Shown here piece after piece: positions 59,350 to 63,132 of a stretch of 64,000 nucleotides of DNA. The first letter of the stretch is position 1. Every line of letters starts with the position of its first letter. The DNA is taken from the NCBI GenBank assembly GCA_022841915.1, contig JALHQN010000001.1, positions 744,001-808,000 of the forward strand, written 5' to 3'. The notes beneath the pieces were generated by a model, which saw nothing but the letters and a program-made list of their open reading frames with translations, searched no databases and was not told where the DNA came from. Source of the stretch: Burkholderiales bacterium. Its GTDB lineage: Bacteria > Pseudomonadota > Gammaproteobacteria > Burkholderiales > WYBJ01. The position numbers and the translations under genes were made by a program.

Positions 59350-59907
59350 CTAGCGGTCGCCGCGATGGGGCGATTCGCCCCTCAAGCCGCTTCGCAATCG
59401 CCTAATGATCGAGGCGCGATCGGCCGGCACGATTCCGTCTGCACAGAAGTAATCCGAGTACAACATCGCCTGATGCTCATTGAGGCGGCCGGAAAGGATA
59501 GGCTCCCACTCGGAGCGTCTGGCCTCGACCCATCCTTTGTTCGGATAACCGACCGCGTAAAGACGTCTTTCCCGGGTCTGACAACGAATCCCCTCGTAGG
59601 AGACGTTCACAGCTCCCCCGCTCGTTCGCATCACGAGAGCGTATCGCACCACCCCATCGGCACCGACGACCAGGGTGGCCGCGTCGATGAAATACCTGTG
59701 TGAATCGACCGGCCCCGGATAGAACTGCACCAAGTCGGAATCCTTCGGATAGCGAGGCAGTTCCAGTTTGGCTTCCCTGGGAGGACCACTGGGTTCTTCG
59801 CCAAAAGCGCCTCGATCGGCATCCCGCGCTTCTGTTCCGGACACGCGGGATCCGCAGGCGGACAACAAGGTGAGCGCGGCGATTGCAGCGGCGATACGCC
59901 GGATCAT
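59350..59907 (-). CDS. CNP1-like lipoprotein
   Basis: 185 residues with a lipoprotein signal and lipobox LLSAC (Cys18), so anchored in the outer or inner membrane facing the periplasm. The rest is of the CNP1-like family (first seen in Neisseria/Bordetella as a conserved protein of unknown role). The start overlaps the DUF3501 stop (ATGA), coupling it to the rubrerythrin operon. It converges with proB across 10 bp. Confidence 0.87.
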   Translation of the reverse strand: MIRRIAAAIAALTLLSACGSRVSGTEARDADRGAFGEEPSGPPREAKLELPRYPKDSDLVQFYPGPVDSHRYFIDAATLVVGADGVVRYALVMRTSGGAVNVSYEGIRCQTRERRLYAVGYPNKGWVEARRSEWEPILSGRLNEHQAMLYSDYFCADGIVPADRASIIRRLRSGLRGESPHRGDR

Positions 59908-60488
59908 GTCAAATCACGAATCAACGACGCACGCACGGCATCGCCGACCTCATCGATGACGTGCGAATAGCTCGGATGGTCGACTCCGATGGCAAGACCG
60001 GCGCCGGAGCGCAGACGCGACTTCATGGCTTCGTTGAGCTCGAAGCGCAGAAAATGCACCGACGAAGTCTTCTCGTCGTTCTCGCGCTCCAGGTCTTCAT
60101 CGGCAATGGCATAGACAGGTTGATCCCCTTCCACCTTGACCCATACGCGATCCTCGATGCCGATCAGCTTGGGCAGCATGCGGCGGCGCTCCTCGACCTC
60201 CGGATACTCGATCAGCATCGTCGCTTTCCAATTGCTGCCGTCGGGGACAAGCGGGTTGTAGGCATCGATCTCGTCCTGGATGCCCTGGGCTTCAAAAATG
60301 CGTTCCGCCCGCAGCATTTCCTGGATCTGATAGCGCATGGTGAGTTCGTCCTCGAACACCAGCGTCACGTTAGGGCCGACACCCAACGTACGATTCTTCT
60401 TGTGAGCGAGAACCTTGCTTCGAAACTCATTGCGCTCGCGCGAGTAGGCCTCGAGCGTCATTAGGCTGTCACGGCTGATTCGAGCCAT
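59904..60488 (-). CDS. DUF3501 protein
   Basis: 194 residues from ATG 60488 with GAGGA six bases upstream. Family of unknown function (MARISRDSLMTLEAYSRERNEF start; MLRAERIFEAQGIQDEIDAY). Found beside rubrerythrin and Fe-S oxidoreductase genes as part of a recurring triad in proteobacteria in my recollection. Soluble, acidic. It is co-transcribed with CNP1 and the Fe-S gene. Confidence 0.85.
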   Translation of the reverse strand: MARISRDSLMTLEAYSRERNEFRSKVLAHKKNRTLGVGPNVTLVFEDELTMRYQIQEMLRAERIFEAQGIQDEIDAYNPLVPDGSNWKATMLIEYPEVEERRRMLPKLIGIEDRVWVKVEGDQPVYAIADEDLERENDEKTSSVHFLRFELNEAMKSRLRSGAGLAIGVDHPSYSHVIDEVGDAVRASLIRDLT

Positions 60489-60560
60489 TGTCGTCCTCAT
60501 ATCAAAGTCATGCCGGCCAGGTTCGACTGGCCGGCCAAGCAGCCTGTGGCGAGTAGTCAA

Positions 60561-61889
60561 CTACAGGCCGTACGCCATACGCAGCAAGGTGAGCGGATGG
60601 GCCTTTTCGGGCGCATCTTCGCCGATGCCCTGACAGATGTGCCTACCGGCAATCGCGCAATCCGAACTGATGTAGTCGGCTTGCGCTTGCGCCATCTGCT
60701 TGAACACCGGCTTGCCGATCTTCATCGACTGTTCGAAATACTCCTTTTTCACCCCCCAAGTACCATCATGACCCGAGCAACGCTCGATCATTTCAACCTG
60801 GGTATCGGGCAGGAGCTTGAAGAGATCTCGCGTCTTGTTACCCATGTTCTGCACCCGCAGATGGCAAGGCACGTGATAGGCGATCTTTCCAAGAGGGCGC
60901 TTGAAATCGGTCTTCAGCATCCCGTCCTTGTGACGCGCCATGAGATATTCGAAAGGATCGAACATCGCTTCGGCAACCGCAGCCACGTCCTTGTCCTCGG
61001 GGAAGAGCAACGGCAGTTCTTGCTTGAACATCAACGTGCATGACGGCACCGCCGTAAGAATGGCATAGCCCTCACGAGCCAGTTTCGCCAGAACGGGAAT
61101 GTTCTTGTCTTTCAACTTGGCCACAGACTCGAGATCGCCCAATTCCAGCTTGGGCATGCCGCAGCAGACTTCCTGATCGACCAACTGGCTGGGTATCTGG
61201 TTGTGCGCCAGAACCTGGAGCAAGTCATGGCCGATGCCGGGCTCGTTGCAGTTCACGTAACAAGTCGCGAAGATCGCAACCTTCCCAGGAGCATTTGCTC
61301 CGTCCCGGACCTCGAACCCTGCCTGCGGCTGCGCCGACCCGCGAAACTTCTGCGGCGAGTATTCGGGCAACACCCTGTCCTTGTGGACGCCGATGACCTT
61401 CTCCATCAACCCCCGTGCGCCGTCGTTGCGGTTCACCGCATTGACGACTTGCGCGACCACGGGTATCGCCGCCAACTTGCCGACCGCATCCGTGCTGGTG
61501 AGAAGCCGGTCCCGAAAGGATGCGCCCGAGGTACGGTACTTCACCGCCTTGGCTCGCAACATCAGATGAGGGAAATCGATGTTCAGCGGATGCGGCGGCA
61601 CGTACGGACATTTGGTCATGAAACACATGTCGCACAGGTAGCATTGATCCACCACATCCCAGTAACGCGCCTTGTCCACGCCGTCCAATTCGCCCGTCGG
61701 CCCTTCGTCGATCAGATCGAACAGGCTGGGAAACGAATTGCACAGATTGAAGCAGCGGCGGCAGCCGTGACACACATCGTAGACGCGGTGCAATTCGTCG
61801 AACAGTTTGGCTTCGTCGTAGAAATCGGGATTGCGCCAGTCGATGGGATGGCGCTTCGGCGGCTCTAGGTTACCTTCTCTGGCTGACAT
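60561..61889 (-). CDS. GlpC/HdrB-like Fe-S oxidoreductase subunit
   Basis: 442 residues. N-terminal part: two 4Fe-4S motifs (CHGCRRCFNLC and CYLCDMCFMTKCP). C-terminal half: two CCG-type domains, the first with CCGMPKLELGD, the second with PCHLRVQNMG and CSGHDGTWG, where one of the usual two cysteines is Ser. Related to GlpC and heterodisulfide-reductase subunit B. Sits between rubrerythrin and DUF3501 and probably supplies electrons to rubrerythrin (inferred). Confidence 0.88.
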   Translation of the reverse strand: MSAREGNLEPPKRHPIDWRNPDFYDEAKLFDELHRVYDVCHGCRRCFNLCNSFPSLFDLIDEGPTGELDGVDKARYWDVVDQCYLCDMCFMTKCPYVPPHPLNIDFPHLMLRAKAVKYRTSGASFRDRLLTSTDAVGKLAAIPVVAQVVNAVNRNDGARGLMEKVIGVHKDRVLPEYSPQKFRGSAQPQAGFEVRDGANAPGKVAIFATCYVNCNEPGIGHDLLQVLAHNQIPSQLVDQEVCCGMPKLELGDLESVAKLKDKNIPVLAKLAREGYAILTAVPSCTLMFKQELPLLFPEDKDVAAVAEAMFDPFEYLMARHKDGMLKTDFKRPLGKIAYHVPCHLRVQNMGNKTRDLFKLLPDTQVEMIERCSGHDGTWGVKKEYFEQSMKIGKPVFKQMAQAQADYISSDCAIAGRHICQGIGEDAPEKAHPLTLLRMAYGL

Positions 61890-61987
61890 GTGCGGTTCTC
61901 ATGAAGAGGTGGGAAACGACTGGCACAAAACAAAAAGGGTGATGCGATGGGTCTTGCCCACCGCATCACCCCGCTTGCATCGTCGGT

Positions 61988-62407
61988 CTAGTCCGCGAGG
62001 GCGTCCAGCGCCTTCTGGAACCGATTCGCGTGCGAGCGCTCGGCTTTCGCCAGAGTCTCGAACCAGTCGGCGATCTCTCCGAACCCTTCGTCGCGGGCCG
62101 CCTTGGCCATACCCGGATACATATCCGTGTACTCGTGCGTCTCGCCTGCGATCGATGCCTTCAGATTGTCACGTGTGCGACCGAACGGCAGATCGGTCGC
62201 CGGATCGCCGCAGGTTTCCAGGTACTCGAGGTGACCATGTGCATGGCCGGTCTCGCCTTCAGCGGTCGAGCGAAACACCGCCGCCACGTCGTTCTGGCCC
62301 TCGACATCGGCTTTGGCAGCGAAGTACAGGTAGCGGCGGTTCGCCTGGGACTCTCCCGCAAATGCGGCCTTCAGATTGTCGTGCGTCTTGGATCCCTTCA
62401 GTTGCAT
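61988..62407 (-). CDS. Rubrerythrin, short form without rubredoxin domain
   Basis: 139 residues. Diiron peroxidase; ligands E19, E52xxH55, E89, E92 and E123xxH126. The two halves look alike ([12 protein letters not shown] and [12 protein letters not shown]), as in all rubrerythrins. No C-terminal rubredoxin, so an outside electron donor is needed, plausibly the Fe-S protein next to it. AAGGAGAGG is before the ATG. First gene of the operon, with a palindrome in the promoter. Confidence 0.93.
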
Positions 62408-62474
62408 CGTTCCTCTCCTTGCCTTGGTTGTTACATCGCTGTTCAGACTTCCAGCCTCAACAGCCGCCCTCTAC

Positions 62475-62513
62475 TTTAGAATCATTCTAAATTTTTAAGC
62501 TCAGCGGCGTCAA
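62475..62513 (-). promoter_or_regulatory. Promoter of the rubrerythrin operon with a 17-bp Fur/PerR-like palindrome
   Basis: The minus-strand -35 TTGACG (62508-62513) and -10 TAGAAT (62484-62489) are 18 bp apart. The -10 lies inside a perfect palindrome, TTTAGAATCATTCTAAA (62475-62491), shaped like the 7-1-7 boxes of the Fur family (PerR, Irr). A repressor bound here would block RNA polymerase. Confidence 0.7.
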
Positions 62514-62559
62514 TCATCCATCACTGCACAGTGGGTGCGTTCGTCGTTCCTTGTCCGGT

Positions 62560-63132
62560 TCAGGCGCTGCCCGTAGTCGCCGCCTCTGTCTGCGGGGCGG
62601 GCGCTTCGTACCCATCGCGCACGGGCTCACGCCCCCGCGCGATGCGCCGATATCCCCTCGATCGATCCACAAATCGGCTCAACTCGTTGAGCGCGCGCTG
62701 ATAGACCTCACGCTTGAACTCAATGACCGATTCGAGCGGGACCCAATAGTCGCTCCACCGCCAGGCGTCGAACTCGGGACGCTCACAGGCACGCAACTGG
62801 ACGTCGCAATCCCGCGCCACGAATCGCAGCAAGTACCAGATCTGCTTCTGGCCTCGATAGTTTCCGCGCCAGTCCCGCTTTATCCAGTGGTCGGGCACCT
62901 CGTAGCGCAACCAGCCTCGCGTTCGCCCCAGAATCCGAACATGATGCCTTGCGAGCCCGACCTCTTCGTTGAGTTCACGGAACATCGCCTGCTCGGGCGA
63001 CTCTCCGTACTTGATGCCCCCTTGCGGGAATTGCCACGCATGCTGATTGACCCGCTTACCCCAGAACACCTCGTTCCGATGATTGAGGATGATGATTCCC
63101 ACGTTCGGGCGATAACCATCCTTATCTATCAT
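62560..63132 (-). CDS. rppH: RNA pyrophosphohydrolase
   Basis: Removes pyrophosphate from the 5' end of mRNA to start decay. 190 residues with the Nudix box [20 protein letters not shown] (G-x5-E-x7-R-E-x-x-E-E-x-G) and [17 protein letters not shown] at the start. The C-terminus has a Pro/Ala-rich extension. It is close to proB and CNP1 as in other betaproteobacteria, but the rubrerythrin operon lies between. Confidence 0.95.

Follow-up and report, generated by a model that had tools for sequence, protein, structure and literature searches.

A conserved palindrome on the promoter of a rubrerythrin operon is a probable operator of an Irr/PerRA-branch Fur-family repressor in Burkholderiales

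Gene content of the rubrerythrin operon

The window analyzed here is a 64-kb stretch of a Burkholderiales draft genome of 6.2 Mb, and the operon under study consists of three genes on its minus strand. The first (rbr, 61988-62407; Pfam PF02915, 101.6 bits) encodes a rubrerythrin of 139 amino acids without a rubredoxin domain, which we assigned to the aerobic type from its size and gene context, following the excerpt of PMC5114695. The second (60561-61889, minus strand) encodes a GlpC-like Fe-S oxidoreductase with CCG domains (PF02754), whose match to the GlpC model falls below the cut-off; it is the probable electron partner of the rubrerythrin and is called RFO after the same excerpt. The third (59904-60560, minus strand; PF12007, 252.4 bits) encodes a DUF3501 protein, and its place in the cluster is supported by synteny in most relatives. 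Among the 80 loci nearest by rbr (the best 80 of 593 confirmed, referred to below as the named loci), RFO lies nearby in 74 and DUF3501 in 73, and the closest rbr genes listed there belong to Burkholderiales and Betaproteobacteria MAGs, with 94-95% identity.

In the excerpt of PMC5114695, the aerobic-type cluster is described as a rubrerythrin lacking rubredoxin that is co-localized with DUF3501 and RFO, and the window operon has the same three genes, again with a rubrerythrin devoid of rubredoxin. Judged by gene content, this is the aerobic-type RBR-RFO-DUF3501 cluster already described. The sequence-only reading had described a rubrerythrin together with its probable electron partner, in agreement with the PF02915 and PF02754 matches and with this cluster context. 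The main text of PMC5114695 never mentions "PerR".

A palindrome covering the -10 element of the rbr promoter

A scan of positions 62380-62620 yielded a single promoter-like match, TTGACG-18-TAGAAT, running on the minus strand from 62513 to 62484 (shuffle mean, 0.1). Its -35 hexamer TTGACG (62508-62513) is kept in the two congeners having rbr, and its -10 hexamer TAGAAT (62484-62489), set off by an 18-nt spacer, falls within a predicted operator at 62475-62491. This element, TTTAGAATCATTCTAAA, is a perfect 8-1-8 palindrome of 17 bp with A or T at 14 of its 17 positions and the core TTAGA-N5-TCTAA; it covers the -10 element, and the rbr start codon lies 67 bp downstream. The sequence and the promoter scan thus bore out the perfect palindrome on this promoter from which the analysis started. 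An alignment of three sequences from the window's genus shows two conserved blocks, the box and the -35 element, in an rbr upstream region that otherwise aligns poorly.

Palindromy by itself is unremarkable in 64 kb, as the window contains three perfect 8-1-8 palindromes versus a shuffle mean of 2.0, and 22 of 60 shuffles (those of at least 99% of the window length being accepted) reach three. When the count was confined to A+T-rich palindromes (at least 12 of 17), one was observed versus 0.03 per shuffle. The significance of TTTAGAATCATTCTAAA comes from its position and from its conservation in relatives. It is unique at up to three mismatches both in the window (0.00 expected from 100 shuffles) and in the whole draft genome, so that the genome scan proposed in the sequence-only reading returned the rbr site and no other. 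We give a negligible probability to the explanation that the palindrome arose by chance or belongs to an RNA or terminator element: about two 8-1-8 palindromes per window are indeed expected, but Rfam gave no match at gathering score in 61900-62700, there is no terminator-like site in 62380-62620, and the same promoter keeps the box in dozens of genomes.

Conservation and placement of the box upstream of rbr

The conservation of the box was examined in two samples. The order sample comprised 150 genomes, 72 of which have rbr at E ≤ 1e-30, and up to 200 bp upstream of rbr was scanned, with the better copy used in the two genomes carrying two rbr genes. The consensus TTAGANTNANTCTAA was found at two mismatches or fewer in 41 of these 72 genomes and in 0.6% of shuffled upstream regions; since this consensus was picked after the upstream sequences had been viewed, the count of 41 is not blind. 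In the named loci, the best 80 of 593, TTAGA-N5-TCTAA with at most one mismatch precedes rbr in 37 cases (0.6% in shuffles), and it was found upstream of none of the 74 RFO, 73 DUF3501 and 23 rppH genes of these loci. The 43 named loci without the box before rbr include those of Nitrosomonas, Gallionella, Burkholderia and Paraburkholderia. The box also occurs at gammaproteobacterial rbr loci, namely L075, L078, L109 and L068 (named Acidiferrobacterales), and the 17-mers of L068 and L075 are identical to TTTAGAATCATTCTAAA, up to strand.

In two genomes of the order, G149 (C1:2699148-2700385) and G020 (C1:2522276-2523532), rbr stands head-to-head with ahpC; both genomes are without an Irr-like match, the box is absent from the 200 bp before rbr, and a different regulator may act there.

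To compare the position of the box, we stacked 65 sites (36 from the order sample and 29 of the 37 named ones) and sorted the layouts by eye. In most of them, TTGACA is separated by about 17 nt from a TATACT-like -10 element, and the box follows some 11 nt downstream of the latter, a layout that would place it over the first bases to be transcribed. In a second layout, seen in the window's genus and a few others, the -10 element is part of the box. Such a range of positions, from -10 to about +20, suits a repressor and not an activator. The invariance of TTAGA and TCTAA in the stack results from the selection of sites; in the 37 named sites, no such selection applied to the inner T/A at positions -1/+1, which 80% of them have. 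At the rbr promoters of L177, L081 and L100, tandem TTAGA-N5-TCTAA boxes occur about 30 bp apart, possibly bound by two dimers. The element is a near-palindromic, A+T-rich inverted repeat of 15-17 bp in a repressing position at a promoter, which is the form of a Fur-family operator.

A candidate regulator of the Irr/PerRA branch

The genome encodes three Fur-family proteins: L001, a Fur; L002; and L003, called Zur-like by eye only, which scores highest with a Fur model, at 49 bits against a cut-off of 220. The L002 gene (G000:C1:587658-588080) lies outside the window. Among the models, IrrA gave its product the highest score, 129.8 bits (cut-off, 150), ahead of Irr (123.4 bits) and of Leptospira PerRA, which came third (93.4 bits; cut-off, 200); the best solved-structure match is Leptospira PerRA (PDB 5nl9, E 4e-21). 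All five clade members that were scanned fall under the NCBIfam cut-offs for both IrrA and Irr, and the IrrA of Ruegeria, run as a control, passes.

Relatives of L002 were found at E ≤ 1e-12 in 54 of the 150 order genomes. In a tree of 44 rows, which took in the best 30 of these 54 matches and left out PerRA and the other 24, the most divergent among them, the 30 order members form one clade (support, 97/91). This clade is sister to, and not inside, six alphaproteobacterial Irr/IrrA rows (joint support, 99/98), and it stands apart from Fur, from two Fur/Mur-like alphaproteobacterial rows and from Listeria PerR. The tree is to be read with its root as a drawing root, its outgroup branches being long and meeting and the bootstrap not fully settled; the Rhodovulum and Azospirillum rows, labeled "alphaIrr", grouped with Fur.

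Residues corresponding to the Bacillus PerR metal ligands H37, D85, H91, H93 and D104 are kept in all 30 aligned members (of 54), and so is the Asn of helix H4 that is characteristic of PerR and Irr. The structural zinc Cys set (two CxxC) is present in none of these 30 proteins, nor is the Cys-Pro pair, the core of the heme regulatory motif. According to the excerpts of PMC8638967 and PMC10294975, residues such as these ligands and the Asn tell PerR/Irr from Fur/Zur.

Co-occurrence of the box with the regulator gene

Among the 72 rbr genomes of the order, 37 have both the box at rbr and an Irr-like gene, 4 the box only, 7 the gene only and 24 neither (Fisher, 3.9e-9); counted by family, the numbers are 20, 1, 2 and 11 (3e-6). 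For the sequence-only reading, absence of the palindrome from relatives that share the operon would have counted as evidence against it; the box is in fact kept in 37 of the 44 rbr genomes with an Irr-like gene, and it is 24 of the 28 without the gene that are without it. Five genomes, all drafts, have a box and no Irr-like gene: G045, G084, G095 and G123, with the box at rbr, and G144, with the box at trxB. For four of the five, a member of the same family with an Irr-like gene exists, and the IrrA model gives one Fur-like match in each of the five, with 55-62 bits.

Those single Fur-like matches, together with the fact that both proteins are of the Fur family and encoded in this genome, could speak for canonical Fur (L001) or the Zur-like L003 as the protein that binds the site. 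We consider this very unlikely, since in both proteins an Arg replaces the PerR/Irr Asn in helix H4, and the 24 of 28 rbr genomes cited above lack the box along with the Irr-like gene.

The regulator gene itself often carries the site. When upstream regions were scored with a matrix built solely from the 37 named rbr sites, 20 of 29 relatives had a site scoring at least 8 before the irr-like gene, compared with 0.5% of shuffles and 0 of 212 control upstream regions; one of the 30 irr-like loci was left out because its upstream region was too short. The site is typically TTAGACAnAGTCCAA and mostly begins 35-42 bp before the start codon. In the window's genus, a scoring site at the irr-like gene was found in none of the four sampled members, two of which have a TTAGAC half-site.

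The OxyR element is a 15-bp sequence, ATAG-N7-CTAT, and the half-site spacing and length of TTAG-N7-CTAA match it. The genome encodes an OxyR homologue (L307, 246.5 bits, under the model cut-off of 329), and OxyR could then be supposed to bind the site and activate the operon upon peroxide. This alternative was rejected on co-distribution and position, and we regard it as highly improbable. The site does not track oxyR: OxyR (E ≤ 1e-60) is absent from 15 of the 41 rbr genomes with the box versus 5 of the 31 without it, and among the rbr genomes lacking OxyR, 14 have both the box and the Irr-like gene, 1 the box only, 0 the gene only and 5 neither. Nor does the site lie upstream of the -35 element; it sits on the -10 element or beyond it, which is ill-suited to an activator. 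Inspection of one relative (L036) by eye showed no further element at 22-bp spacing.

Across the whole order sample, an OxyR match is absent from 17 of the 54 Irr-like-positive genomes versus 16 of the 96 Irr-negative ones. Expressed as presence, these are 37 of 54 versus 80 of 96 (p 0.04, not corrected for kinship), a distribution that would fit a possible swap of peroxide regulators.

Other box sites and the regulon in relatives

Exact copies of TTAGANTNANTCTAA numbered 42 in the 150 genomes versus 21 for the backward control, and 29 of the 42 are at rbr. Eight of the other 13 precede trxB (4), ahpCF (2), a peroxiredoxin gene (1) or a bacterioferritin-like gene (1, L231). The remaining five make no functional sense by gene names assigned by eye: two lie between serA- and pheA-like genes, one is at a sigma-factor-like gene, one near a topoisomerase-like gene and one near a transposase-like gene. 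Of 17 further sites chosen by hand, five lie before peroxiredoxin genes and one before a catalase gene, and the remaining 11 have no telling target. Ten target proteins were compared with NCBIfam: two thioredoxin reductases, an AhpC and one peroxiredoxin C scored above cut-off, three peroxiredoxin C proteins just under it, and a partial AhpF, a catalase and the bacterioferritin-like protein matched below it; the remaining targets were named by their likeness to these ten.

The two boxes between serA- and pheA-like genes (L220 and L221, in G033 and G078) belong to two members of one family and may be either chance occurrences or a lineage-specific target.

The loose pattern TTAGA-N5-TCTAA was not enriched genome-wide, with 75 sites in the 54 Irr-positive genomes versus 101 for the backward control; among its non-rbr, non-irr sites, inspection covered 11 and 14, with 13 falling outside it. 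In the genome studied here there are three sites at two mismatches versus 31 for the backward control, and its ahpC (C8) has no site within two mismatches. A PerR-type regulon, that is, peroxidases or catalase together with the regulator itself, was encountered in the relatives taken together, and the genome's own box is the one at rbr. Because the rbr operator is the only one recognizable in this genome, the local regulon may be a single operon. Three of the degenerate sites in the window's own genus were inspected and discarded as candidates, one (L301) lying before a LysR-type gene and two (L302 and L303) being without an evident target.

Judging by gene identity, the targets in relatives resemble a PerR-like regulon. 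The PerR/Irr type of Fur-family box to which the palindrome had been likened at the outset also fits the regulator clade, which is sister to Irr and has the PerR metal ligands, and the boxes at irr-like, ahpCF, peroxiredoxin, trxB and catalase genes of relatives.

The main rival to a peroxide signal keeps the same operator and L002 and takes iron or heme as the signal: the protein would bind under iron limitation and dissociate once iron or heme is abundant, which would restrict synthesis of the iron-rich rubrerythrin to times of sufficient iron. In its favor, the clade is sister to alphaproteobacterial Irr, IrrA is the top-scoring model of L002, one box stands at a bacterioferritin-like gene, and, according to the excerpt of PMC3413700, Bradyrhizobium Irr acts as a repressor of the rubrerythrin-like blr7895, and in Rhodobacter Irr binds the promoter of mbfA. 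However, the recognizable targets in relatives are peroxide and thiol-redox genes, and no heme-synthesis, siderophore or iron-uptake gene was recognized by eye among the sites inspected. The Cys-Pro pair is missing from all 30 aligned members, although the same excerpt reports that some alphaproteobacterial Irr proteins also lack the motif, and none of the five scanned members passes the IrrA or Irr cut-off, which the Ruegeria control does. We judge iron or heme sensing unlikely, yet clearly less so than binding by OxyR, Fur or L003.

Proposed mechanism and comparison with known systems

Our preferred explanation is that the palindrome is the operator of L002, an Irr/PerRA-branch Fur-family repressor that would be released by H2O2 and control rbr-RFO-DUF3501, and we hold this to be probable. 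The peroxide-sensing repression proposed in the sequence-only reading is thereby supported, the peroxide signal itself being a prediction. It draws on the computed site, its overlap with the promoter, its conservation, its co-occurrence with the regulator gene, and the site at that gene and the peroxide-type targets in relatives; from these we infer binding by L002, repression and peroxide as the signal, with iron or heme sensing as the main rival. According to this model, a metal-loaded L002 dimer would bind the box and cover the -10 element, shutting RNA polymerase out of rbr-RFO-DUF3501. H2O2 would oxidize the iron at the PerR-like His/Asp site, L002 would let go of the DNA, and the peroxide-reducing rubrerythrin system would then be produced.

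Several known systems come close to this arrangement. The ICE, or Irr box, of Alphaproteobacteria has a consensus close to TTAGAA-N3-TTCTAA, and Irr proteins, like the L002 clade, are without the structural CxxC and carry Asp at the regulatory-site position that is occupied by Glu in Fur. The excerpt of PMC3413700 states that alphaproteobacterial Irr represses rubrerythrin-like genes through ICE boxes, that the Rhodobacter mbfA start maps within the Irr box and that a Rhodobacter irr mutant is more peroxide resistant. The L002 clade differs from Irr in belonging to another class, in scoring under the IrrA and Irr cut-offs, in having no Cys-Pro pair and in its recognizable targets, which are peroxide-defense genes, and a 2021 paper describes Irrs as restricted to alphaproteobacteria (PMC8638967, excerpt). 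The same excerpt reports that Leptospira PerRA and PerRB have no C-terminal CxxC and likens the autoregulatory sequences of PerRA to Irr boxes.

The metal-site residues of Bacillus PerR are matched in the L002 clade, and the PerR box is likewise a short palindrome (15 bp, 7-1-7), given as TTATAATNATTATAA where it is quoted in the excerpt of PMC545781; the PerR regulon comprises catalase, AhpCF and usually PerR itself (PMC10294975, excerpt). In contrast to Bacillus PerR, the L002 clade is without the structural zinc Cys and distant in the tree, in which PerR was represented by the Listeria row, and the box here has G/C at its fourth positions (TTAGAAT versus TTATAAT). The predicted PerR of deltaproteobacteria, as set out in the excerpt of PMC545781, has boxes at rubrerythrin operons that overlap a candidate -10 element in Geobacter; its consensus sequences differ, however, and several of the deltaproteobacterial genomes show linkage of perR and rbr, whereas the regulator gene is unlinked in the flanks examined here.

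Fur-family boxes at rubrerythrin operons are already known or predicted, and the operon itself is known. The apparent novelty, on the sequence evidence, lies in an Irr-branch clade of betaproteobacteria that combines a PerR-like regulon with an Irr-like box, and in the occurrence of this box in gammaproteobacteria as well. A search of open-licence papers yielded no description of the clade or the box, which is weak evidence of absence. More broadly, we put forward, as a tentative reading given a little less than an even chance, that in betaproteobacteria and some gammaproteobacteria this zinc-site-free Irr/PerRA clade could be their PerR, repressing the rbr cluster, AhpCF and peroxiredoxins, thioredoxin reductase, catalase and itself via TTAGA-N5-TCTAA and standing in where OxyR is absent; what was seen in gammaproteobacteria is the box. 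If true, it would suggest that the Irr branch sensed peroxide before it came to sense iron or heme. A named regulator, a box and a target list together make up a testable peroxide regulon in a group where no described PerR was found. They propose a regulator for the aerobic-type rubrerythrin cluster and offer a comparison for how a single Fur-family branch came to respond to peroxide in certain lineages and to heme in different ones.

Surroundings of the irr-like gene

No Irr-like gene was found in the rbr loci within flanks of 1.5 to 5 kb, which were often ended by contig ends. In the genome studied here, the L002 gene (region G000:C1:586239-589526) is flanked by an integrase/transposase-like ORF on one side and by type IV pilin-like ORFs on the other, with no metal or redox genes among the neighbors (ORF names assigned by eye). 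In two congeners, the sequence TTCGAGTCACTCCAA, which we take to resemble a tRNA T-arm, is repeated near the irr-like gene.
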